IMG/VR virus record: IMGVR_UViG_3300042543_000803
Location: 1-21,580 of that record
From: a virus
Reading direction: 5' to 3' (one strand)
Length of the DNA stretch: 21,580 nucleotides
The notes below the pieces were generated by a model that saw nothing but the letters and a program-made list of their open reading frames with translations, searched no databases and had not been told where the DNA came from. Of this stretch, positions 2,224 to 21,306 are shown piece by piece. A program made the position numbers and the translations under genes. The stretch's first letter is position 1, and each line of letters begins with the position of its first letter.

Positions 2224-2662
2224 AATATCATTACTTGATTCAATTAATGTAGCAATCAATATTGGCGGATCTAACACATTCGCTGATATTGACTGTTTAT
2301 ATTTAAAAGAACCAGCAAAAAACGAATTAGCTGATTTTTACTTCTATTTTAATGGAGAATTTATAAAAGAACTTCAATATTTTGTAAATAATAATAACAA
2401 TAATTCTCAAAAACAGGGTGAGGCAAGTTCAGAAGAATTGAAAGCTATGGTTAGCATTTGTTTATTTAATGATAAATTCTCTCAAAGAAAAAATAAAATC
2501 TATTCATTATTATCAAAAGTTGCTTTCAAAGATGAAGAATTAAAGCAATCAATTGATGAAACTGAAATTGATAAATTAGCATTAGAAGATTTACAGGAGC
2601 TAGTATCAAGTTTTTTGTCAAATTACTGGGTTGTCCGCTGGTTGAAGCAACTAGCGAAATAG
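2216..2662 (+). CDS. tail assembly chaperone, short form (Mu gp41 position)
   Basis: This 148-aa protein lies between the tube and the tape measure, where contractile- and long-tailed phages encode the tail assembly chaperone that coats the tape measure during tail assembly. The sequence has an N-terminal beta-rich part with an Asn-run near residues 57-62 and a helical C-terminal half rich in Glu, Leu and Lys. The reading frame ends at TAG 2660-2662, but the mRNA carries a -1 slippery heptamer at 2611-2617 in the right phase, so a longer product is expected (separate entry). Sequence resemblance alone is weak; the combination of position, size and frameshift site makes the call strong. Confidence 0.8.
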   Translation: MLKISLLDSINVAINIGGSNTFADIDCLYLKEPAKNELADFYFYFNGEFIKELQYFVNNNNNNSQKQGEASSEELKAMVSICLFNDKFSQRKNKIYSLLSKVAFKDEELKQSIDETEIDKLALEDLQELVSSFLSNYWVVRWLKQLAK

Positions 2663-2829
2663 ATTACCTAGCAAAATTAGACGAATACTATTTTAATATA
2701 TTATATTTTTGGAAAGGTGCTATAAGTATAGATTGGCTTGAAAAACAAACACCAGCAAAGATTTTATCAATAGTAAAAAATCAAAATAGAATAATAAAGG
2801 AAGAAAATAAAAATGTCTTTTCAAGTTAA
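2216..2829 (+). CDS. tail assembly chaperone, -1 frameshift product
   Basis: If ribosomes slip by -1 on T TTT TTG at 2611-2617, the next codon is GTC at 2617-2619. The new frame then stays open for 70 codons to TAA at 2827-2829, filling a stretch of 150 bases that would otherwise hold no gene. The fusion would be 204 aa: 134 codons read in the first frame, then an extension starting VKLLGCPLVEATSEIDYLAK and ending KNVFSS. It runs 17 bases into the tape measure gene. In lambda (G/GT), P2 (E/E') and Mu-like phages a minority fusion of this kind links the chaperone to the tape measure. The extension has helical, charged character and a 'YFNILYFWKGAISIDWLEK' segment resembling the C-terminal part of such chaperones. 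The frameshift is inferred from sequence, not shown. Confidence 0.8.
2595..2617 (+). promoter_or_regulatory. -1 frameshift site: internal Shine-Dalgarno plus T TTT TTG slippery heptamer
   Basis: The heptamer T TTT TTG occupies 2611-2617 in the phase X XXY YYZ, so both tRNAs can re-pair after a -1 slip. AGGAG at 2595-2599 lies 11 bases upstream, the distance at which an internal Shine-Dalgarno stimulates -1 slippage in E. coli dnaX. The same heptamer type is known from the P2 tail gene E. The open -1 frame downstream supports real use. Confidence 0.82.
2636..2656 (+). other. stem-loop downstream of the frameshift site
   Basis: CGCTGGTTG (2636-2644) pairs with CAACTAGCG (2648-2656) over 9 base pairs, one of them G-U, with an AAG triloop. 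The stem begins 18 bases after the slippery heptamer and ends just before the first-frame stop TAG (2660-2662). Such a structure can pause ribosomes. The spacer is longer than the usual 5-9 bases, so its role as a stimulator is uncertain. Confidence 0.55.
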
Positions 2830-4348
2830 AATAGTATATGATCTTATTGATAAAGTAAGCTCAAAAATACAAAAAATAAATTCTACAATAAATGCTAGTG
2901 CGGGCAATATTAAAGCGATGTCTAGCTCAATGTCTCAATCATTTTCATCATTTAGCAATTCTCTTAATAATAACTCAAATCAAATAGCAAATTCATTAAA
3001 TAAAGTTGGTAGTTCATTAAAAGAAGCGAGCGGTAAATTAGCTCCACTTTCGCTTGGGATTGGTGCTATTGGTTTTGGTGCATTAAAATCTACTGCTAAT
3101 TTTGAAACTCTTGCAATGCAATTAGAGTCGCTTGCTGGCAGTGCTGAGAAGGGTAAAATTATGTTTAATAATTTAGTCAAGCTTGGTGCTGAAACTCCAT
3201 TTGAGTTAGCTCCGCTGATAAAAGCAAATAACACAATGATGGGCTTTGGATTATCTAGTGAAAGTGCATTTGCTAATTTAAAAAGAATAGGCGATGTTGC
3301 CGCTATCACTGGCGGAGATTTACAGGGAGTTGCTCTTGCATTTTCTCAAACTTCGGCACAAGGCAGATTAATGGGGCAAGAAATTTTACAATTTATAAAT
3401 AATGGAGTGCCAATTATTGAAATGCTTGCTAAAACAATGAATAGACCAACTAGTGAAATAAAAAAACTAGTAGAGCAAGGTAAGGTTTCATTCCCGATAG
3501 TTGAAAAAGCTTTTATTGATGCAACTTCACAGGGCGGTAAATTCTCTGATGGTATGAAAAAACTAAGTGGAACTTTATCTGGTATATTTTCTACATTAAA
3601 AGATAATGTTAATATTGCTCTTGCTGATTTGGGAAAGGATATTGTTGAGACAACAAATTTAAAACAAACAATGAGAGATTTTGCTGGTTTTGTTGCAGAT
3701 CTTACAGATAAATTTAAATCATTATCGCCAGAGCTAAAACAATTTATAATTTATGGCGGAATGATTACTGTTGCATTGACCCCAATTCTATTTATTGCTG
3801 GTTCAATAGCAAGTGGTTTTGCAATAATGTTTAAGGGTGTTGTAATGTTAACAACTGGATTTTCATTATTACAAGTTGCATTGGCAGGAGCATTTAGGGC
3901 ATTGATTGCTTTTTCGGTGGCAAATCCATTTACTGCAATACTAGTAGCAACAACATTAATTTATCAATATTGGGGAGATATCACTTCTATTTTTGGTAGA
4001 GTTTCTAATTTTATTAAGCAAATTACTTTTGATGATTTTATTGTTGCTGGCGAGAAGATATTGCAAGTATTTTCTAATATATTTAAAACTATTCTTGATA
4101 TTTTAGGTAAAGTTGACTTGTTTAGTAAAATCGGTCAAATTTTTAGCGGTACAAAAGATTTTATTTTTGGCAATGGAGAAAAATCTAATCAAAATACAAT
4201 GCAACCGAAATTACAGTCTAGTAATCAAAATTTTAATGGTAATATCGCAGTTTCATTTAACAACACTCCTAAAAACACTACAATACAAAGTATGGTAGAT
4301 AATAGAGCTGTTGATCTTGGTATTAATTCAGTTTTTGCGACAAGATGA
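2813..4348 (+). CDS. tail tape measure protein
   Basis: The tape measure sets tail length and sits in the tube lumen. At 511 aa it is short for the family, and the usual scaling of about 0.15 nm per residue predicts a tail near 75 nm. Residues 1-75 form a Ser/Asn-rich helical start. Residues about 90-275 match the conserved tape-measure N-terminal domain (FETLAMQLESLAGSAEKG, then 'AETPFELAPLIKANN', 'GDLQGVALAFSQTSAQGRLMGQE'). Residues about 312-385 are strongly hydrophobic, as often seen where the protein may insert into the host membrane. The C-terminal tail is Asn/Gln-rich and polar. An AAGGA at 2797-2801 precedes the ATG by 11 bases. It follows the chaperone gene and overlaps the next gene by 4 bases (ATGA). 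Confidence 0.9.
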   Translation: MSFQVKIVYDLIDKVSSKIQKINSTINASAGNIKAMSSSMSQSFSSFSNSLNNNSNQIANSLNKVGSSLKEASGKLAPLSLGIGAIGFGALKSTANFETLAMQLESLAGSAEKGKIMFNNLVKLGAETPFELAPLIKANNTMMGFGLSSESAFANLKRIGDVAAITGGDLQGVALAFSQTSAQGRLMGQEILQFINNGVPIIEMLAKTMNRPTSEIKKLVEQGKVSFPIVEKAFIDATSQGGKFSDGMKKLSGTLSGIFSTLKDNVNIALADLGKDIVETTNLKQTMRDFAGFVADLTDKFKSLSPELKQFIIYGGMITVALTPILFIAGSIASGFAIMFKGVVMLTTGFSLLQVALAGAFRALIAFSVANPFTAILVATTLIYQYWGDITSIFGRVSNFIKQITFDDFIVAGEKILQVFSNIFKTILDILGKVDLFSKIGQIFSGTKDFIFGNGEKSNQNTMQPKLQSSNQNFNGNIAVSFNNTPKNTTIQSMVDNRAVDLGINSVFATR

Positions 4349-5517: not shown

Positions 5518-6550
5518 TGTTTATGTTAATAAAATAAAAGTTAATTATCTATCTGCCGAAGTTTCAAGGAGTATTGAAAGCTTTTGTGGTGCATTCTCTT
5601 TTGATTTAAAAGTTGGTATTGATTGCAAAAGAAATGATGAAGTTGATATATTTAGCAATTATGAGAGAGTGATGACTGGTATTATAGAAGATATATCAAA
5701 CCCGCGAGAAAAAGGAAATTTTTCAATAAGAATCAGTGGTAGGGATAGAACGGGAGTATTGATTGATAGTTATATGAAACCTAAACAATATAGACAAAAG
5801 AATTTTAATGCTTTGATAAGAGCTGTTTTGCAAGATAATAATTATAATTTTAAAATTATACAAGATGTTCCTGTTTTAAAACTTATTGATAAAATAGAAG
5901 ATGGTGGCAGTGAGAAGATATTTGATTTTTTAGATAGTTATGCAAAAAAAGCACAGGTTCTATTGTTAACAAATGAAAATGGTAATATTGTAATAACAAG
6001 AGAGGGTGGTGAGCTTGCTACCAATACACTTATTGATAGTAATATACTAAATTCTACTTTATCAGTTGATTCAAGCGAAAAATATAAATATATAGATGTT
6101 TATGGTTCGTTAAAAACAGAATATAATTCAAAAAGAACAAGCCAAAGAGCATCAATAATAAATAATCTTGCGACTGGCAATAAAAGAGTAATTATAAGAG
6201 TTGATAGTAATTCAAGCTATAAATCATTACAATCATTAGCGAATTGGTATAAGAATGTTAAAGAAGCAAAAGGTGCAAGATATGAATGTGTTGTTAGTGG
6301 CCATTATCAAAAAGGTTCACTTTTTGAAGAAAATTTATGGAAGCCTAATTCTATTGTAAATTTAATTGATGATGCAAGAAATATATCGGGAACATTTCTA
6401 ATTCAAGGAGTTAAATATAGAACTACTATTGAAGGTAATTATACAGATTTATCAATTGTTAATTTAGGAAGCTTTGGATTGCCACCTTTAAATACTTTGT
6501 TAAGCAAATTGATAACTGCTGGTAATAATCTTGGCAAAGCTTTTAGCTAA
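5510..6550 (+). CDS. baseplate hub protein (Mu gpP/gp44-like, gpD family)
   Basis: The hub forms the trimer that closes the tube and carries the spike. At 346 aa, it is near the length of Mu gpP (about 380 aa). The N-terminus (strand 'VYVNKIKVNYLSAEVSRSI', then 'FSFDLKVG') and the 'FSIRISGRDRTGVLIDSYM' segment near residues 65-85 are characteristic of gpD/gp27-type hubs ('GRDKTADLVDCS' in relatives). A 'RITREGG' type strand near residue 160 and the C-terminal 'LIQGVKYRTTIEGNYTDLSI' strand also fit. Its end overlaps by 8 bases with the end of the spike gene, which runs on the other strand. In Mu the spike gene follows on the same strand. Confidence 0.85.
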   Translation: MLDVYVNKIKVNYLSAEVSRSIESFCGAFSFDLKVGIDCKRNDEVDIFSNYERVMTGIIEDISNPREKGNFSIRISGRDRTGVLIDSYMKPKQYRQKNFNALIRAVLQDNNYNFKIIQDVPVLKLIDKIEDGGSEKIFDFLDSYAKKAQVLLLTNENGNIVITREGGELATNTLIDSNILNSTLSVDSSEKYKYIDVYGSLKTEYNSKRTSQRASIINNLATGNKRVIIRVDSNSSYKSLQSLANWYKNVKEAKGARYECVVSGHYQKGSLFEENLWKPNSIVNLIDDARNISGTFLIQGVKYRTTIEGNYTDLSIVNLGSFGLPPLNTLLSKLITAGNNLGKAFS

Positions 6551-7004
6551 CAGGACCGCTATTTGCCGTTCCGCTCATCACTGCTGAATGTGTATGATTT
6601 AAAAAGTTTTTACCTGTTATTGTTGCTTGCCCTGTTATTGTTGCATCATTATTAATAGTAATGTTGCCGTTTATTTCCAAGTCGCCCTCAATTTTTGTAT
6701 TTGTTGCTGTTATTGTTATGCTATTATCTTTTATCAAAATATTGGGCTGATTATCAAATCCTCCAACTTGAATTTGCCCGCTTTCTATTTTTGGCTGTTT
6801 TATTATGTTGATAGGACACACAAGCGGATAATCTTTTCCGCCATCCACATAAAATACTAAAACAAGAGAATTTTCTGTAATTTTAATATTTGAAAAAAAG
6901 CCATAAGGTAAAAATATTTGACCGAGCTGGATTTCTCCGCTACTTTTTTTGAATTTTACTTTACCGTCTTGGTTGACTGATATTATTTTTGCAATTTCGT
7001 TCAT
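6543..7004 (-). CDS. baseplate spike / cell-puncturing protein (Mu gp45, P2 gpV type)
   Basis: The protein (153 aa) is the needle tip that pierces the outer membrane. Residues 1-70 form an OB-fold-like beta domain (AKIISVNQDGKVKFK, then 'GDYPLVCPI'-like strand around 57-66). Residues about 85-130 show short repeating strands (INGNITINNDATITGQATIT) expected of the triple beta-helix. The C-terminus has the H137-T138-H139 motif that in related spikes (P2, phi92, Mu) binds an iron ion at the apex, followed by the common ending 'SGTANSGPVS'. The gene is on the minus strand between plus-strand hub and wedge genes, which is unexpected: Mu has gp44-gp45-gp46 in one direction. It therefore needs its own promoter. 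No clear Shine-Dalgarno precedes the ATG. Confidence 0.88.
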   Translation of the reverse strand: MNEIAKIISVNQDGKVKFKKSSGEIQLGQIFLPYGFFSNIKITENSLVLVFYVDGGKDYPLVCPINIIKQPKIESGQIQVGGFDNQPNILIKDNSITITATNTKIEGDLEINGNITINNDATITGQATITGKNFLNHTHSAVMSGTANSGPVS

Positions 7005-16358: not shown

Positions 16359-17201
16359 ATGAAATTTATTAAATTCGACACATATGGTATTCCTTGCGAA
16401 GTTATAGAAAATGATATAGATTTAGAGTTATTTTTCAAAAATAATTGTCCTCATTATAGAGTTCCTGACGATTATGATTTTGAGAATTTTAAATCAAGGT
16501 TTGTTTTAGTTGATGGAAAATTAAAAGAATTATCAAGAGAAGATTCTATTCAATATGAGTTATACAAAGCGAAGTCTGAGGAATTAATTAATGTTAAGAA
16601 AAATCTAATAACAGAAATTGACAATAGGTACAATTCTTGCTTACTGTTAACAATAGAAAATGGATTTAGATTTAGTGTTAATCTAAGAGATAAAAATGGA
16701 ACTGAACTTTTAAATATCATAAAAAGTTCCATTGGAAGTTATGTGGACGATATAAAAGGGAAGAAAACACAAACATTTTTCATAACAATTTTAGAAGCTG
16801 GCATTGAAAGACAAATACAGTGTTCTTGCCTTAATTGGTTGTGGCAATATATTTTTGAAGAGTTATTGACTTATGTTGTGTCAATGAAGCAATTAAAAGA
16901 TAATTACATTTTAGATATTAATTCTATTGATGATTACAATAAAATTAAAACCATTAAAAAAACATTTGATGATAATTTTATCTTCCCTAAAAAAGATGGT
17001 CTAAAAATTAATGTTTCAAAAACTATTAGCAAGTTATTGGATCTAATAAAAGATACCAATTCTCTGGGTCAACAAATTACGATTCCTAGTTATGTTAAAA
17101 ATGCAATAATTAATGTAAATAGAGAATTATTCAGGTATGTTGATAATAATAATATTATTCTAACAACAAGAGAAATATTAAAAAATAGTTGGTTTGAATG
17201 A
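16359..17201 (+). CDS. putative tail fibre assembly protein (DUF4376-like), 280 aa
   Basis: This gene begins 5 bases after the large fibre, as a fibre chaperone does. The first 60 residues, 'MKFIKFDTYGIPCEVIENDI' to 'YRVPDDYDFENFKS', look like the small N-terminal domain of fibre-associated proteins. Residues about 75-180 have the shape of the DUF4376 region: a long helix 'YKAKSEELINVKKNLITEID', a pair of strands 'LLTIENGFRFSVNLRDKNG' and then a helix. The C-terminal 100 residues (about 180-280) are not recognised. A second pair of fibre and small follower protein in this window (9375-11095) makes the role more believable. It overlaps the next gene by 4 bases. Confidence 0.5.
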   Translation: MKFIKFDTYGIPCEVIENDIDLELFFKNNCPHYRVPDDYDFENFKSRFVLVDGKLKELSREDSIQYELYKAKSEELINVKKNLITEIDNRYNSCLLLTIENGFRFSVNLRDKNGTELLNIIKSSIGSYVDDIKGKKTQTFFITILEAGIERQIQCSCLNWLWQYIFEELLTYVVSMKQLKDNYILDINSIDDYNKIKTIKKTFDDNFIFPKKDGLKINVSKTISKLLDLIKDTNSLGQQITIPSYVKNAIINVNRELFRYVDNNNIILTTREILKNSWFE

Positions 17202-17812
17202 AAATAGAGATATTATTTAATATAATTAAAAATGGCGATTTAATTGGCTTTCATTACAAGAAATGGTATTATTTTGTTGGTAAGATAATTAACTTTTTTT
17301 CTTATAAATTTAATCCGCTAAAAGAGAAGTTAATTAAAATTGAACATATTGGTATGATTTTTGATATTGTAAAACACAATGACTCAATATCATTTTCTTT
17401 TGGTGAGAGCCTTGGATCAGAGGGCGGTAAAAAAGTTAGTAGATTTTCAATTAATAAAAATGGCGATGAGTATTTAATAGATAGTAAATTTTTAAATAAA
17501 AATATTGATTATTATATAATACCTGCAAAACAAGAATTATTAAAAGATGAGAATATTTATGCTCGTAAATTTTGGGATAAAAAAGAAAAATATTCTGTTA
17601 TAAATGCAATGATTAGCCCAAATTGGAGCCAAAAGTTGTTAAAAATATTTATCAAGAATAGAAGTTTAGATAATCTTGACAATTTTTGTTCCGGTGAAGT
17701 TAATAGATTTTTCTTTGATATTGGTAGATGCGATAATTGTGATTTATTGCCAAGTCCAGCAGAAATCATTAATCAATCTTATGTTAATAAAGATAAAATT
17801 TTTAAGTTATAA
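17198..17812 (+). CDS. permuted NlpC/P60-like (YiiX/PF05708-type) cysteine hydrolase
   Basis: The motif order is that of the circularly permuted NlpC/P60 (papain-like) family of YiiX/YebB: 'GDLIGFHY' near residues 13-20, then His50 in 'EHIGMIFD', then Glu69 in 'SFGES' with a following Gly-rich stretch, and the Cys164 nucleophile in 'NFCSGEVNRFF', followed by 'LLPSPAEI' near 183-190. Such enzymes are cysteine hydrolases or amidases acting on peptide or acyl bonds; a phage member could trim cell-wall peptides, but the substrate cannot be read from sequence. There is no signal peptide. Its place between the fibre module and the membrane-protein cassette fits either a virion-associated enzyme or a lysis factor. 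It overlaps both neighbours. Confidence 0.72.
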   Translation: MKIEILFNIIKNGDLIGFHYKKWYYFVGKIINFFSYKFNPLKEKLIKIEHIGMIFDIVKHNDSISFSFGESLGSEGGKKVSRFSINKNGDEYLIDSKFLNKNIDYYIIPAKQELLKDENIYARKFWDKKEKYSVINAMISPNWSQKLLKIFIKNRSLDNLDNFCSGEVNRFFFDIGRCDNCDLLPSPAEIINQSYVNKDKIFKL

Positions 17813-18519
17813 TGATTAGGTCTTTTTGTAAAAAACTAAATTTAAAAAAAATATTTTATTTTGCAATTTATCTTGTATCAATATTTTTATTATACTTGCA
17901 AATTTGCTATATCTTGATGAAAGATCAGAACAAAGATAAGTTATTTGAATATTCCAATAAAAGAGAAATTGAAGTTGTTTTGCAAGACTTAGTAAAAGAG
18001 TGCGGAACTGGTTATGCTGTTGGATGGTGGAGAGCCGAAGAGATAAGTTTAACTTATAGAAATGTTGCATTATATAAGCAATTTTGCAATAATGATAAAT
18101 GTGAAGTCAAGTCAATAAAGCAATATAATAATTTTTATCAACAGTCGCACAAATTTGATTTTGAAACATTGTCATTTTTAAAACTAGTTTCATCAAAAAA
18201 AGATAAGCCAACAGTTTATGCTTGTAGAAATATTAAGAAATGCGAACATACACAAAAACCGATTTTTATGGAAATGATTATCGGAGCTAATGAAGGATAT
18301 AATAAAAGAGAATTTAATATTGATAGCGGTAGTAAGTTAAGAGAAGTATTTACTAAAACAAATTTCCCAATTTTTGATTTTACTTATGCAGTAATTCTTG
18401 ATAAACAAGAAGATGTTTATAATCTATTTCATATATCAAATTTAGATATAAATAATGTTAAATGCGATATTGAAACTGCAAGAATAAAACTTCAAGAATT
18501 AACGAGGGGGTTAGATTGA
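17812..18519 (+). CDS. hypothetical membrane-anchored protein, 235 aa
   Basis: I do not recognise a family. Residues about 14-35 (FYFAIYLVSIFLLYLQICYI) form one membrane segment after a basic N-terminus with seven Lys/Arg in the first 13 residues, so the bulk of the protein probably faces the periplasm, or else remains tethered at the inner face. The soluble part contains eight cysteines, including 'ECGTGYAVGWW' near 63-73, 'FCNNDKCEV' near 91-99 and 'CRNIKKC' near 138-144, which would suit disulphides outside the cytoplasm. The start overlaps the preceding stop (TAATG), and the stop overlaps the start of the next gene (TTGA). Its place suggests a role in lysis or in blocking superinfection, as an inference. 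Confidence 0.55.
   Translation: MIRSFCKKLNLKKIFYFAIYLVSIFLLYLQICYILMKDQNKDKLFEYSNKREIEVVLQDLVKECGTGYAVGWWRAEEISLTYRNVALYKQFCNNDKCEVKSIKQYNNFYQQSHKFDFETLSFLKLVSSKKDKPTVYACRNIKKCEHTQKPIFMEMIIGANEGYNKREFNIDSGSKLREVFTKTNFPIFDFTYAVILDKQEDVYNLFHISNLDINNVKCDIETARIKLQELTRGLD
18504..18518 (+). promoter_or_regulatory. strong Shine-Dalgarno deciding a TTG start
   Basis: GAGGGGG at 18504-18510 lies 5 bases before TTG at 18516-18518. It is one of the clearest ribosome-binding sites in a window where most genes have little or none. The TTG start overlaps the upstream stop TGA at 18517-18519, so coupling plus a strong site replaces an ATG. Confidence 0.6.
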
Positions 18520-18905
18520 TAGAAGCAATTGAATACATATTAAAAACATCTATACCATTTTTTAAGCAATATGGTTTTAATGTATTATGGCTAGTTTTTA
18601 GTAGTAATATCTTAATGTTTTTTAGTATAACTAGATATATAAAAACTATTCTTAATGAGTCTATGCAAGATTTTAAAAAGATCATTGAAAAAATTGACGA
18701 TAGAGTGCAAAAAGCAGAAGTAGAAATTAAAGCTCAATCTCAAAATTTTAACAGAGATATTCTTGCTCTTAATAGAAATTATGAAAATGTAAATAATAAC
18801 ATTGATATATTAGCTAAAAAAGTAGAAGAGAATACTGTTAGAATTTTACAAATTGAAATTGAAAATAACAATAAGAACAAAAAACGGAGTAACAATGGAA
18901 AATAA
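18516..18905 (+). CDS. membrane-anchored coiled-coil protein, 129 aa
   Basis: A single membrane segment at residues about 20-40 (GFNVLWLVFSSNILMFFSI) follows a short N-terminal stretch, and residues about 45-120 are a long predicted coiled coil with heptad-like spacing ('ILNESMQDFKKIIEKIDDRV' through 'NIDILAKKVEENTVRILQIE'). The C-terminal tail is polar and basic. The shape resembles inner-membrane spanins or phage proteins of unknown role near holins, but another spanin candidate follows, so I do not assign a function. The TTG start is supported by a strong ribosome-binding site at 18504-18510. The gene overlaps the holin candidate by 11 bases. Confidence 0.6.
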   Translation: MIEAIEYILKTSIPFFKQYGFNVLWLVFSSNILMFFSITRYIKTILNESMQDFKKIIEKIDDRVQKAEVEIKAQSQNFNRDILALNRNYENVNNNIDILAKKVEENTVRILQIEIENNNKNKKRSNNGK

Positions 18906-19182
18906 ACCTAGTTTTTTTAGAGGAATTGTAAGCGATGGCAAAGGCAATTATTCTAGCCGTAGATTTGCATTTCTAACATCAACATTTGCAATAATTGGAT
19001 TTGTTGTTTTTATGATTATCAAATACGAAAATAATGCTGATGTATTGCAAGAAGTAATTACTAACTATATGATTTATAGTGCCTTTCTTGGCGGTGTTGT
19101 TTCTATTGACAGTTTAGAAAAGATAACTAGTATATTTTCAAAGAAAAAAGTAGCAACAATCAAAACTAAAAATGATAAATAA
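18895..19182 (+). CDS. holin candidate, 95 aa
   Basis: Residues about 24-43 (FAFLTSTFAIIGFVVFMIIK) and about 55-72 (ITNYMIYSAFLGGVVSID) form two membrane segments; the 'YSSRRFAFLTS' lead into the first is common in small phage holin families, and the C-terminus is basic (FSKKKVATIKTKNDK). Holins open the inner membrane at the programmed time so that the endolysin reaches the wall. I chose the ATG at 18895, which has GGAG about six bases upstream, over a TTG at 18853 that would add 14 Lys- and Thr-rich residues and overlap the previous gene much more. Spanin and endolysin genes follow nearby. The holin role is inferred from topology and context. Confidence 0.6.
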   Translation: MENKPSFFRGIVSDGKGNYSSRRFAFLTSTFAIIGFVVFMIIKYENNADVLQEVITNYMIYSAFLGGVVSIDSLEKITSIFSKKKVATIKTKNDK

Positions 19183-19405
19183 ATTTTTTACAATTTTTGC
19201 TGGTATATTTACTTTTATTTTGGGTTTTTTTACCTCAAAAAAGATAAGTGATGCCGAGATTTTAAAACAACAAGTAAAACAATATGAAGAAAAAGAAAAA
19301 CAAAGAGAGAAGCTTGATAAAATCATTGCTGATGCCAATACTGTTAGCAATGATGATAAACGGTTGTGGCTTAAAAAACAAAGAGAAAGTCGTAATAGCA
19401 AGTAA
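19172..19405 (+). CDS. inner-membrane spanin candidate (Rz-like), 77 aa
   Basis: Residues about 4-20 (KFFTIFAGIFTFILGFF) form an N-terminal membrane anchor, and residues 24-75 a charged coiled coil rich in Lys, Glu and Gln (LKQQVKQYEEKEKQREKLDK). That is the layout of an i-spanin, which sits in the inner membrane and reaches across the periplasm to its outer-membrane partner. At 77 aa it is short compared with lambda Rz (153 aa). The partner gene begins inside it in another frame at 19284 and runs past its end, the classic Rz/Rz1 overlap. It overlaps the holin candidate by 11 bases. The pairing with a lipoprotein gene is the main support. Confidence 0.65.
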   Translation: MINKFFTIFAGIFTFILGFFTSKKISDAEILKQQVKQYEEKEKQREKLDKIIADANTVSNDDKRLWLKKQRESRNSK

Positions 19406-19550
19406 TGCTAGCTTCTGCCAAGGTGCAAAACCTTTTTATTCGTTAAACGAACCTTTTGAAGAAATTGTTTCAAATGAAATGCTTGATATAATCTATTTAC
19501 ACGATAAGAAGTATAATTGTTTATGTCTTAATATTAAAGAAGATTGTTAA
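19284..19550 (+). CDS. outer-membrane spanin candidate (Rz1-like lipoprotein), 88 aa
   Basis: The N-terminus is basic (MKKKKNKER), then hydrophobic (residues 11-25), ending in the lipobox 'INGC' with Cys28 as the lipid-modified residue. The mature part has 'SFCQGAKPFYSL', then a spaced 'EIVSNEMLDIIYLHDKKYNCLC', like the pattern of many phage Rz1-type proteins, where a Cys, a Pro and a final 'I..HN..y..lC' recur. O-spanins sit in the outer membrane and join the i-spanin to fuse the two membranes in the last step of lysis. The gene starts inside the i-spanin gene (122 bases of overlap) and continues 145 bases beyond it. This is longer than lambda Rz1 (60 aa). Its presence argues for a Gram-negative host. 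Confidence 0.72.
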   Translation: MKKKKNKERSLIKSLLMPILLAMMINGCGLKNKEKVVIASNASFCQGAKPFYSLNEPFEEIVSNEMLDIIYLHDKKYNCLCLNIKEDC

Positions 19551-20098
19551 TGAGTCCAGCAGATTTAATCTTGAAAGTATTGCCAGTTATACTATGCTCT
19601 TTTAATGTTTTGTTATGTTTTATAGCTTTTATAAAAATTACATTAAATAAAAGTAAAAAAATTAAAATAGAATATAATAAATATCTTGTTTTGATACTTA
19701 TATTATTTTTGATTGCGATAAGTTCTTATTATTTTATCATACAAATGAATTGGCTAAATAATAATAATGGTAATAAAATAGGAGAAGAAGATAAGCTTTG
19801 GAGTATATTAGAGTCATCATACTGGATATTTTGCTCTCTATCTCTTTTAAAATTGATATTATCAGTTGATAAAAAGCAAGATGCTAAATATGAGATATTA
19901 AATAATTTGAGAAAGACTACAATTCTAGTAAATCAAAATCATATTATAGAAGATATTGTAAAAGATGAGAAAAAATTTAAAATGAGTTTATATTTTATTG
20001 CTTTCATTATTTTTGCTTTTATTTTTCTAGTTTTGGCACTTCTTGGAAAACAAGATGCTTTTAATGTTTTGCAACCTGCAACTAATCTAATAAAATGA
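19550..20098 (+). CDS. hypothetical membrane protein with four predicted segments, 182 aa
   Basis: Membrane segments are predicted near residues 6-28 (LKVLPVILCSFNVLLCFIAF), 42-64 (LVLILILFLIAISSYYFIIQ), 86-105 and 145-165 (YFIAFIIFAFIFLVLALL). The loops are short and rich in Lys and Asn. No family is recognised. The ATG at 19550 was chosen because it overlaps the previous stop (TAATG), a pattern shared with other genes of this cassette; a TTG two codons earlier is possible. The gene lies between the spanin pair and the nuclease. It could be a second holin, an antiholin or a superinfection-exclusion protein; sequence alone does not tell. Confidence 0.55.
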   Translation: MSPADLILKVLPVILCSFNVLLCFIAFIKITLNKSKKIKIEYNKYLVLILILFLIAISSYYFIIQMNWLNNNNGNKIGEEDKLWSILESSYWIFCSLSLLKLILSVDKKQDAKYEILNNLRKTTILVNQNHIIEDIVKDEKKFKMSLYFIAFIIFAFIFLVLALLGKQDAFNVLQPATNLIK

Positions 20099-20241
20099 GT
20101 TTTGGAATTTTTTTAACATTAATGAAGTTTTTGGCGACGAATCCAGAATTAGTAAAACCAGAAAAAAAAGAAATAGTATTAATATCAACAGAAGAACAAC
20201 TTAGATTATGCGAAGAATGCGAAGTCGTTGGAGACGAATAA
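20095..20241 (+). CDS. small hypothetical protein, 48 aa
   Basis: This short gene starts at ATG 20095, overlapping the stop of the upstream gene (ATGA), and ends at TAA 20239-20241. It overlaps the beginning of the nuclease gene by 34 bases. The 48 residues begin 'MSFGIFLTLMKFLATNPELV', and the second half is acidic with a 'LCEECEVVGDE' ending (a C-x-x-C pair). The exact stop-start coupling on the upstream side makes it more credible than a random short ORF. No family is recognised, and the two Cys suggest a metal or disulphide possibility only. Confidence 0.5.
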   Translation: MSFGIFLTLMKFLATNPELVKPEKKEIVLISTEEQLRLCEECEVVGDE

Positions 20242-20702
20242 CTGAAATTCAAATGTTATTAGTTTTTGCAATATCACTAATAATATTTTTGGGAATAGGT
20301 AAAGCGATTGCTTGCGAAAAAGTTATTGAAGTAATTGACGGAGATACTTTTAAAACAAAGAATGATACAATAAGAATTTTAGGAATTGATGCTTTTGATA
20401 AGAAATTAAAAATTGCAGTAAAGCAAGCTGAATTTACTAATAAGCAAATTATAGATGTTATTGATTTGAGAGAAAGAGCTAAATCTTTTGCAAAGCAGTA
20501 TTTACTCAATCAATGTGTAGATTTAAAAGATGATTATAAAAAGAGAGATATATACAATAGACGACTTGCCTATGTGTTTGTAGATGGAGTAGATTATAGT
20601 AGTCTAATATTGCAAAATGAGCTTGCAATGGTTTATTGTAGCGATAGAAAAATTGCTAACTTCAAAAAATATCAACAACTTTCTAAATGGAAATGCAAAT
20701 AA
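20208..20702 (+). CDS. exported staphylococcal-nuclease-like (thermonuclease) protein, 164 aa
   Basis: The nuclease signature is clear from residue 38 on: 'VIEVIDGDTFKTKNDT' (Asp44 and Asp46 match S. aureus nuclease Asp19 and Asp21), 'IRILGIDAFD' (Arg56 as Arg35, Asp61 as Asp40), and 'YNRRLAYVFVDGVDYSS' near 116-132 (Arg118 as Arg87). The position of catalytic Glu43 is occupied by Asp64. The N-terminus is Arg-rich, then hydrophobic (about 16-33), ending 'AIAC', a possible signal peptide site with a Cys immediately after it (lipoprotein is possible but weak). The enzyme would hydrolyse DNA or RNA in the periplasm or after lysis. The first ATG is used here; ATG at 20217 and 20253 are possible alternatives. 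It overlaps the endolysin gene by 16 bases. Confidence 0.78.
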   Translation: MRRMRSRWRRITEIQMLLVFAISLIIFLGIGKAIACEKVIEVIDGDTFKTKNDTIRILGIDAFDKKLKIAVKQAEFTNKQIIDVIDLRERAKSFAKQYLLNQCVDLKDDYKKRDIYNRRLAYVFVDGVDYSSLILQNELAMVYCSDRKIANFKKYQQLSKWKCK

Positions 20703-21178
20703 CAGATTTAAAAAGAAAAAACTTTGGATTTAATGAATTTTTTGATTCAATTACATTAAAAGAGAATCAATTAGAATTTTATAAATTATCACAAGATATT
20801 CAAGAGCAATATCTTGAAAATGGGATGTTGCTTGCTGATAAGATGCAAGAATTAAGAGATAAGTTGGGATTGCCTATTGATATTAGCAGTGCTTGGAGAA
20901 GTCCATTATTAAATAAGATGGTTGGCGGAGCTAAAAAAAGTCAACACTTAATATTTCAAGCTTGTGACTGGCGACCAATTATTGATGGAGTTAAAGTTAG
21001 AGATTCTAACAAGTTAAAAGATATAGTCTTGAAAATAAAAGAACTAGGAATAACTGCGGATCAGTGTTTAGTAGAAGAAAGCTGGATACATTATTCTATT
21101 AAAAAAGATGGCAATAGAAATCAATTTGCTACATACTTCAAAAATAGTGCTGGTAAGAGAGTGTTAAAAGTAATATAA
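20687..21178 (+). CDS. endolysin candidate, peptidase M15 (PF08291-type), 163 aa
   Basis: This is a metallopeptidase of the M15 family that cuts peptide cross-links in peptidoglycan. Residues about 64-96 read 'DISSAWRSPLLNKMVGGAKK' then 'SQHLIFQACDW', the family hallmark (compare 'sgyRsp.lN..vGG...SqH..g.AaDi'). The zinc ligands should be His87, Asp94 and His135 ('ESWIHYSIKKDGNRNQ'). No signal peptide is seen, so export to the wall would depend on the holin. At 163 aa it is near the usual length of phage M15 endolysins. It overlaps the nuclease gene by 16 bases and its stop overlaps the next start (TAATG). The context with holin and spanin candidates supports the lysis role. Confidence 0.85.
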   Translation: MEMQITDLKRKNFGFNEFFDSITLKENQLEFYKLSQDIQEQYLENGMLLADKMQELRDKLGLPIDISSAWRSPLLNKMVGGAKKSQHLIFQACDWRPIIDGVKVRDSNKLKDIVLKIKELGITADQCLVEESWIHYSIKKDGNRNQFATYFKNSAGKRVLKVI

Positions 21179-21306
21179 TGTTGGAGATTTTAATTCAAAT
21201 ATTTATTTATTTCACGGCTCAATTTGGAGCTGATTATCTTAACGACAAAATAAAAGAAGATAAACAAGAGAAGAGTAAGCAAGAGAAATTAATTGAGAAG
21301 CAGTAA
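21178..21306 (+). CDS. small hypothetical protein, 42 aa
   Basis: This gene of 42 codons starts at ATG 21178, overlapping the endolysin stop (TAATG), and ends at TAA 21304-21306. The N-terminal 15 residues (LEILIQIFIYFTAQF) are hydrophobic, perhaps a short membrane anchor; the rest is a charged Lys/Glu/Gln helix (KIKEDKQEKSKQEKLIEK) that looks like a coiled coil. It resembles in shape a tiny membrane-tethered helper of lysis. The coupled start supports it as a real gene. It abuts a gene of the opposite strand with no spacer. Confidence 0.5.
   Translation: MLEILIQIFIYFTAQFGADYLNDKIKEDKQEKSKQEKLIEKQ

Follow-up and report, generated by a model that had tools for sequence, protein, structure and literature searches.

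A conserved module of spanin, endolysin and unrecognised small membrane-protein genes in phages of two virion types

The IMG/VR virus contig IMGVR_UViG_3300042543_000803, which we analysed over its whole length of 21,580 bases and refer to as the window (W), encodes a Mu/P2-type contractile tail module, recognised by its sheath, tape measure, hub and wedge PHROGs, followed by fibre genes and then by a crowded cluster of small genes. A preliminary description made from the sequence alone had singled out this cluster as a cassette of mostly unrecognised membrane proteins that might time lysis. Here we report that the cluster is part of a longer module, with the gene order Z-A-B-C-D/E-(F)-I in all four of the contigs that reach the region, that includes spanin and endolysin families and is shared by phages with different virions.

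A crowded cluster behind the tail fibre genes

Seven plus-strand open reading frames (ORFs), A to G, lie at 17812-20241, where the preliminary description had placed them (Table 1). Their coordinates bear out the reported packing, with successive overlaps (A/B, B/C, C/D, D/E, E/F and F/G) of 4, 11, 11, 122, 1 and 4 bases. Membrane segments were scored by Kyte-Doolittle (KD) windows with a segment threshold of 1.6, and the resulting profile agrees with the count of six products that carry a membrane segment or lipid anchor: segments were found in A, B, C (the second weaker) and D, a signal in E, and four segments in F (the third weaker), with G marginal at 1.10. The borders drawn for the cluster were, however, too narrow, as the module extends from Z (17198) as far as I/J (about 21306), with Z overlapping A by 1 base and G overlapping H by 34 or 25 bases, depending on the start chosen for H.

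Between 17812 and 21306 there are eight plus-strand ORFs of at least 75 amino acids (aa), whereas 300 dinucleotide shuffles give 0.05 on average; for ORFs of at least 48 aa the numbers are nine and 1.12. Since a shuffle yields on average about one ORF of at least 48 aa, G alone is not set apart from chance and is the only doubtful ORF of the seven. Scans of this AT-rich DNA found 52 promoter-like sites, where shuffled sequence gave 39.1 on average (sd 5.4) and from which we draw no reading, and one terminator-like site against 1.0 in shuffles.

Table 1. Genes and ORFs of the module in the window (TM, transmembrane).
Gene	Position	Strand	Description
Z	17198..17812	+	soluble protein of 204 aa; opens the exchanged lysis module
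A	17812..18519	+	235 aa, 8 Cys, single-pass, TM 17-35
B	18516..18905	+	129 aa, TTG start; N-terminal TM and long charged/coiled-coil-like tail
C	18895..19182	+	95 aa from ATG (a longer TTG start exists); two TM segments
D	19172..19405	+	77 aa; i-spanin candidate with N-terminal TM and charged periplasmic part
E	19284..19550	+	88 aa; o-spanin lipoprotein, in another frame than D, 122-base overlap
F	19550..20098	+	182 aa; four-segment membrane protein, optional member (2/4)
G	20095..20241	+	48-aa ORF without homologue; may not be a gene
H	20208..20702	+	secreted/membrane-anchored staphylococcal-nuclease homologue; start probably 20217; window-specific
I	20687..21178	+	M15 peptidase endolysin without signal sequence
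J	21178..21306	+	42-aa ORF, N-terminal hydrophobic stretch (KD only 1.22), overlaps the stop of I

Conservation and exchange of the module

Relatives of the window phage were found by scans with the sheath and with wedge protein J (gpJ), and were mostly short fragments. The four contigs that reach the region are the window, G001 (55.6 kb), G013 (15 kb), which was found with a Z profile run over 10 records, two of which matched (G001 and G013), and G022 (21.6 kb). Gene presence across related phages had been proposed as a check on the cluster, and homologues of Z, A-E and I stand in the same order in all three of the other contigs. Identities between the window proteins and their counterparts are 37-40% for Z, 26-28% for A, 24-33% for B, 23-35% for C, 37-42% for D, 28-40% for E and 38-48% for I. 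The contigs differ in what lies between the o-spanin and endolysin genes: in G001 and G013 one runs directly into the other (overlaps of 11 and 13 bases), in G022 F is interposed and overlaps each neighbour by 4 bases, and in the window F, G and H are found there. F therefore occupies this place in two of the four contigs, the window and G022, and is missing from it in G001 and G013. The exported nuclease homologue H is an addition seen at this place only in the window phage, as is G, although G013 and G022 were not searched whole for H.

G013 shares the contractile-tail type of the window, with a gpJ relative that is 50% identical and blastn pieces at 65% over tail genes, whereas G022 is podovirus-like, with head-protein, DNA-ejection and internal virion families. 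Between these two contigs, DNA identity is 84.5% (L049 against L059) and 81.5% (L056 against L059) over a stretch that begins 10-16 bases into Z and takes in most of E, and the match resumes across I, at 82.2%, to near the end of that gene. The encoded proteins are 73-84% identical (Z, 79%) except for E, at 41.5%. Among the pieces compared, which were L049 and L056 against L059 and did not take in L061 or L062, the only other match is of 70% over the fibre end and the next gene; upstream of the fibre the genes of the two contigs differ. Since G013 stops 52 bases past I, the right border of the module is not visible. Most simply, Z to I would be inherited as one lysis unit that has been exchanged between unrelated virion types, and this movement as a unit is our main ground for regarding A and B as lysis proteins.

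The break in the G013/G022 match within E coincides with F; the C-terminal part of E (G013 L056, G022 L059) diverges exactly at the gain or loss of F, as if E and F had been replaced jointly. Elsewhere, the tail operon of both the window and G001 is on the plus strand apart from one baseplate spike-like gene within it, which is on the minus strand (6543-7004 in the window; L002, 16199-16612, in G001). In L003, a small gene before the sheath contains an in-frame tandem repeat of about six copies of ELQEIETQ (about 1195-1340). Exported proteins with the look of a small outer-membrane beta-barrel, as judged by eye, are encoded by G001 (L057, 16686-17258, plus strand) and G022 (L059, 11689-12282, minus strand); they might mask a receptor or act as exclusion factors, and the one of G022 matches no PHROG.

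When viral contigs were scanned with the single sequences of the endolysin and of A, no relatives were returned. Relatives of the M15 peptidase at L012-L015 were set aside, as their neighbours were unrelated; just past a fibre-like gene, L012 has a reverse-transcriptase-like ORF with a YVDDF motif (2357-3418), which is possibly a diversity-generating element. When 50,697 phage records were searched by tblastn, neither Z nor the G022 copies of A, F and C had any match, H matched one archaeal provirus (E=2e-3), and 29 records matched by A at E 0.7 or worse were rejected as lying over unrelated annotated genes, many of them DNA polymerase exonuclease. On the host side, none of 94 pattern matches of the sheath alignment to genome contigs was a relative, and the TerL alignment led to 26 loci, at best 46% identical and all in bacteria unrelated to one another, from which we name no host. 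In 10 genomes, taken from 10 of these 26 loci, the sheath and Z profiles each scored 0/10, and the Z profile likewise found nothing in the class of G010 (0/385) or the phylum of G007 (0/397). Such blank host searches prove little. The early region of G001 (L057, 14621-15076, 15504-16313 and 19259-19705) encodes, by eye, ankyrin-like repeats and repeats resembling DUF4116; repeats like those in symbionts of protists give a hint as to the host. Among the lysis-cassette and module-exchange papers of the open-access literature, as covered by titles and abstract openings, no description of this module was found.

Lysis proteins and their candidate partners

Protein I falls into Pfam family PF08291, Peptidase_M15_3 (E=2.3e-13, 50.6 bits against a cut-off of 23.2), and into the endolysin family PHROG_894 (E=4.8e-18). 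Residues H87, D94 and H135, which we take to be the zinc ligands of the M15 motif HxxxxxxD...H, are conserved between W and G001 and, as judged by eye, also in G013 and G022. Because hydropathy reveals no signal or signal-arrest-release (SAR)-like segment in I, this endolysin should need a holin.

The spanin role suggested in the preliminary description holds. E matches the Rz-like spanin family PHROG_1275 in the window (E=2.7e-5), G013 (1.2e-6) and G022 (1.3e-3); the G001 copy has no PHROG_1275 match, and the o-spanin family is thus found in three of the four copies. By eye, the lipobox of E reads INGC in W and G013 and is irregular in G001 and G022, with N before the Cys. D gives a weak match to the Rz-like spanin family PHROG_8821 (E=0.019 in W and 0.013 in G001), and its TM segment falls below threshold in G001. 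The two genes overlap by 110-125 bases in all four contigs, much like the overlapped Rz/Rz1 class, in which a TM i-spanin is paired with an o-spanin lipoprotein in another frame, although D/E are divergent and the i-spanin is weakly recognised. In the spanin survey PMC6139136, overlapping i-/o-spanin genes are the commonest of three two-component classes, with 228 of 528.

The most interesting of the unrecognised membrane partners in the module is A. Its predicted layout is the same in all four copies, with a short basic cytoplasmic tail, a single N-terminal TM segment (KD 2.26; net charge +5 before and +1 after it) and a conserved periplasmic domain of 200 residues; the C138/C144 cysteines are present in three of the four. 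Pfam and PHROG profile searches bear out the statement that A, B and F have no clear family. For A, the W, G001 and G013 copies gave no match or weak unrelated ones, including a sub-threshold match to the single-stranded DNA-binding family phrog_7778 that we took as noise, and sequence-profile searches of the PDB with A and F returned noise only.

A first AlphaFold model of A, built from two aligned sequences, had a predicted local distance difference test score (pLDDT) of 44 and a best VIA-align Z of 4.8, with GAF and roadblock folds at the top and T4 holin T not among the matches listed. The model built from four sequences reached a pLDDT of 59.3 and a predicted template modelling score (pTM) of 0.54, and matched 135 of 999 chains at a Z of at least 8. 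GAF domains lead this list at Z 10.9, and the periplasmic domain of T4 holin T occupies ranks 6, 9 and 14 (Z 10.2, 10.1 and 9.8 for 6px4, 6pxe and 6psk), its alignment to 6px4_T (Z 10.2, root-mean-square deviation 3.4, 128 residues) being tied with GAF domains. As a guide, unmatched models in VIA-align typically peak at Z 7-8 and reach 4-5 at rank 50, where the A model still scores 8.8. Foldseek found nothing for this model in the PDB at E<=0.001 (best 7.3e-3); in BFVD it found two uncultured phage proteins at 4e-6 and 7e-6, together with GAF-annotated proteins, and the class III holin of Proteus phage Stubb is on the list at E=4.8e-3.

As predicted for A, holin T of phage T4 has a single N-terminal TM segment, N-in by charge, and a periplasmic globular domain, to which the predicted fold of A matches at a Z of about 10. 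The position is also comparable, since T4 t follows the tail-fibre genes 37/38 and A lies a few genes past the fibre; in T5-type phages, T-like holins (one annotated as a D-alanyl-D-alanine carboxypeptidase) stand directly before the endolysin. The module differs from those of T4 and T5 in its extra membrane partners B, C and F, and in being carried by phages unlike either. The globular domain of T is described as the regulatory part bound by the antiholin RI, in a complex that periplasmic DNA is thought to stabilise (PMC11413866, PMC12162936). TeaA of ICP1 was rejected as a comparison, as it belongs to the GTA_holin_3TM family with a different layout (PMC7182436).

The possible roles of B, C and F are suggested by layout and place. 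B keeps its position in all four contigs, and its G022 copy has a weak, sub-threshold match to BhlA holin (E=0.0059, 17 bits against a cut-off of 22.6); the sub-threshold Pfam and PHROG matches of B were taken as coiled-coil noise. By analogy, its architecture may be called releasin/BhlA-like: gp25 of Mu, the releasin (DUF2730) of a phage with the same kind of contractile tail, also combines an N-terminal TM segment with a cytoplasmic charged/coiled-coil part (PMC9239132), whereas the DUF2730 profile has no match at E<=1 in any of the four B copies and I has no SAR segment by hydropathy. C, a candidate small holin or holin regulator, is present in all four modules; it has 83-95 aa, a conserved SS[RK]R motif and two TM segments, of which one is strong and the other weaker, and matches no Pfam or PHROG profile above noise. 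In layout only, C and B resemble LysF1a and LysF1b of F1 mycobacteriophages, where a protein with two transmembrane domains (TMDs) and one with a single N-terminal TMD share a cassette, in phages of M. smegmatis, described as Gram-positive (PMC13056207). The two-TMD protein gp62 of N4 is termed a lysis regulator (PMC12642591). F of the window is 37% identical to its G022 copy (BLASTP, E=3e-24), and of its four segments the third is weak (1.52 and 1.28). Four TM segments are also found in the P2 antiholin LysA, from the lysis cassette of another contractile-tail phage (PMC11413866); this likeness is again one of layout only, and F differs in its 182 aa and its place between spanin and endolysin.

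Z, at 32-40% identity among W, G001 and G013/G022, has invariant H50 and C164 (in CSG). It has no Pfam or PHROG family above noise, and a weak PDB match to the cysteine peptidase 3kw0 (E=0.064 with a two-row profile) was not recovered with four rows; from its sequence, Z is a possible permuted papain-like (YiiX-type) hydrolase. H belongs to Pfam family PF00565, SNase (E=1.4e-7, 32.3 bits against a cut-off of 21), and has a hydrophobic N-terminal segment, an export signal. In alignments to PDB nucleases, whose catalytic residues are R35, E43 and R87, its IDAFD pairs with VDTPE and the Arg positions look kept. Because Asp aligns at the position of the catalytic Glu, the nuclease activity of H is uncertain.

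A reading of the module as a timed lysis system

We consider it probable that this is a canonical endolysin/spanin module in which timing is set by the T-like, single-pass A together with two-TM and four-TM partners of holin/antiholin type. What the data show directly is the gene order, its conservation, the exchange of the module and the families of spanin and endolysin, whereas every holin, antiholin and regulator role is one that we infer. The cassette would then be the core of a self-contained lysis module in an AT-rich phage of a Gram-negative host. I would cut peptidoglycan as a cytoplasmic M15 peptidase, D and E would form the spanin that disrupts the outer membrane, and A, B and C would handle release and timing, with F as an optional, four-segment modulator of antiholin type. 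The most likely timer would be A, with its basic tail, one TM helix, disulfide-capable periplasmic GAF-like domain and T layout; C could be a second holin or holin partner, and B a membrane-tethered cytoplasmic helper in the manner of Mu gp25 or mycobacteriophage LysF1b. Lysis timing by these genes is plausible, given that A and B are carried along with spanins and endolysin and that the modelled periplasmic fold of A is like that of T4 holin T. No homology of the cluster to tail or housekeeping proteins was found, and membrane locations are predicted. The observation made in the preliminary description is confirmed and its interpretation partly supported, the sensing of infection and the exclusion of other phages being no more than suggestions.

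Several points weigh against this reading. Only four contigs were available, two of them close in this region, and G022 was found by a Z scan, so that Z is present there by selection. Confidence in the A model is low, 77 of its 235 residues scoring under 50, and T scores no better against it than ordinary GAF domains do. A has no Cys placed like the C175-C207 pair of T, the pair invariant in all four copies being C64/C218 instead. In sequence, BLASTP of A against T gave E=0.16, and hhalign of four A rows against eight T rows gave E=0.064 at a probability of 0.9%, with two unrelated control profiles at 0.26 and 0.13. Because these sequence tests found no homology to T, A is not filed in the T family, and we tentatively call it T-like in predicted topology and fold only. 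No RI-like antiholin was identified, and by size and topology C is an equally good holin candidate.

It is conceivable, if doubtful, that C is the real holin, two-segment and class II-like, and that A is a non-hole-forming periplasmic regulator, an antiholin or sensor, that restrains it. The presence of C in every module, with its one strong and one weaker segment, fits this arrangement, and a pairing of two-TMD and single-TMD proteins is known (PMC13056207), but C matches no holin family and the layout of A equals that of T, a true holin. Somewhat less likely still is a plain canonical cassette of a divergent holin C, spanins and endolysin, with A, B and F as fast-evolving accessories that have no special mechanism. 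Ordinary endolysin and o-spanin families are what such a cassette would contain, and small membrane genes nearby are the rule, yet the 200-residue periplasmic domain of A is conserved, its predicted fold is recognisable and it has invariant cysteines. It is improbable that chance placed a moron-type block for superinfection exclusion or defence, made up of A, F, G and H, within the lysis cassette, with H destroying incoming DNA in the periplasm: F is optional and H is window-only, with an export signal and a nuclease family match, but in all the modules seen A is exchanged along with spanins and endolysin, which is unlike an accessory block, and Pfam and PHROGs returned no superinfection-exclusion match (PADLOC was not searched).

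Returning to a lysis module timed by A and its partners, we regard one extension of it as a long shot, namely that A represents a T-type holin family outside the T4/T5 lineages, on a mobile module, whose periplasmic sensing delays lysis (lysis inhibition), and that H, acquired together with it in the window phage, degrades periplasmic DNA and so resets or overrides the delay. To link H with the T model, in which DNA in the periplasm is the signal proposed for inhibition in T4, is speculation.

Sequence searches hardly detect holins, and a module that moves whole between two virion types marks lysis genes that would otherwise not be recognised, here giving a shortlist of A, B, C and F. Should A be T-like, the range of regulated holins that have a periplasmic sensor domain would reach past the T4 and T5 groups, and a new kind of phage would become open to tests of lysis inhibition.

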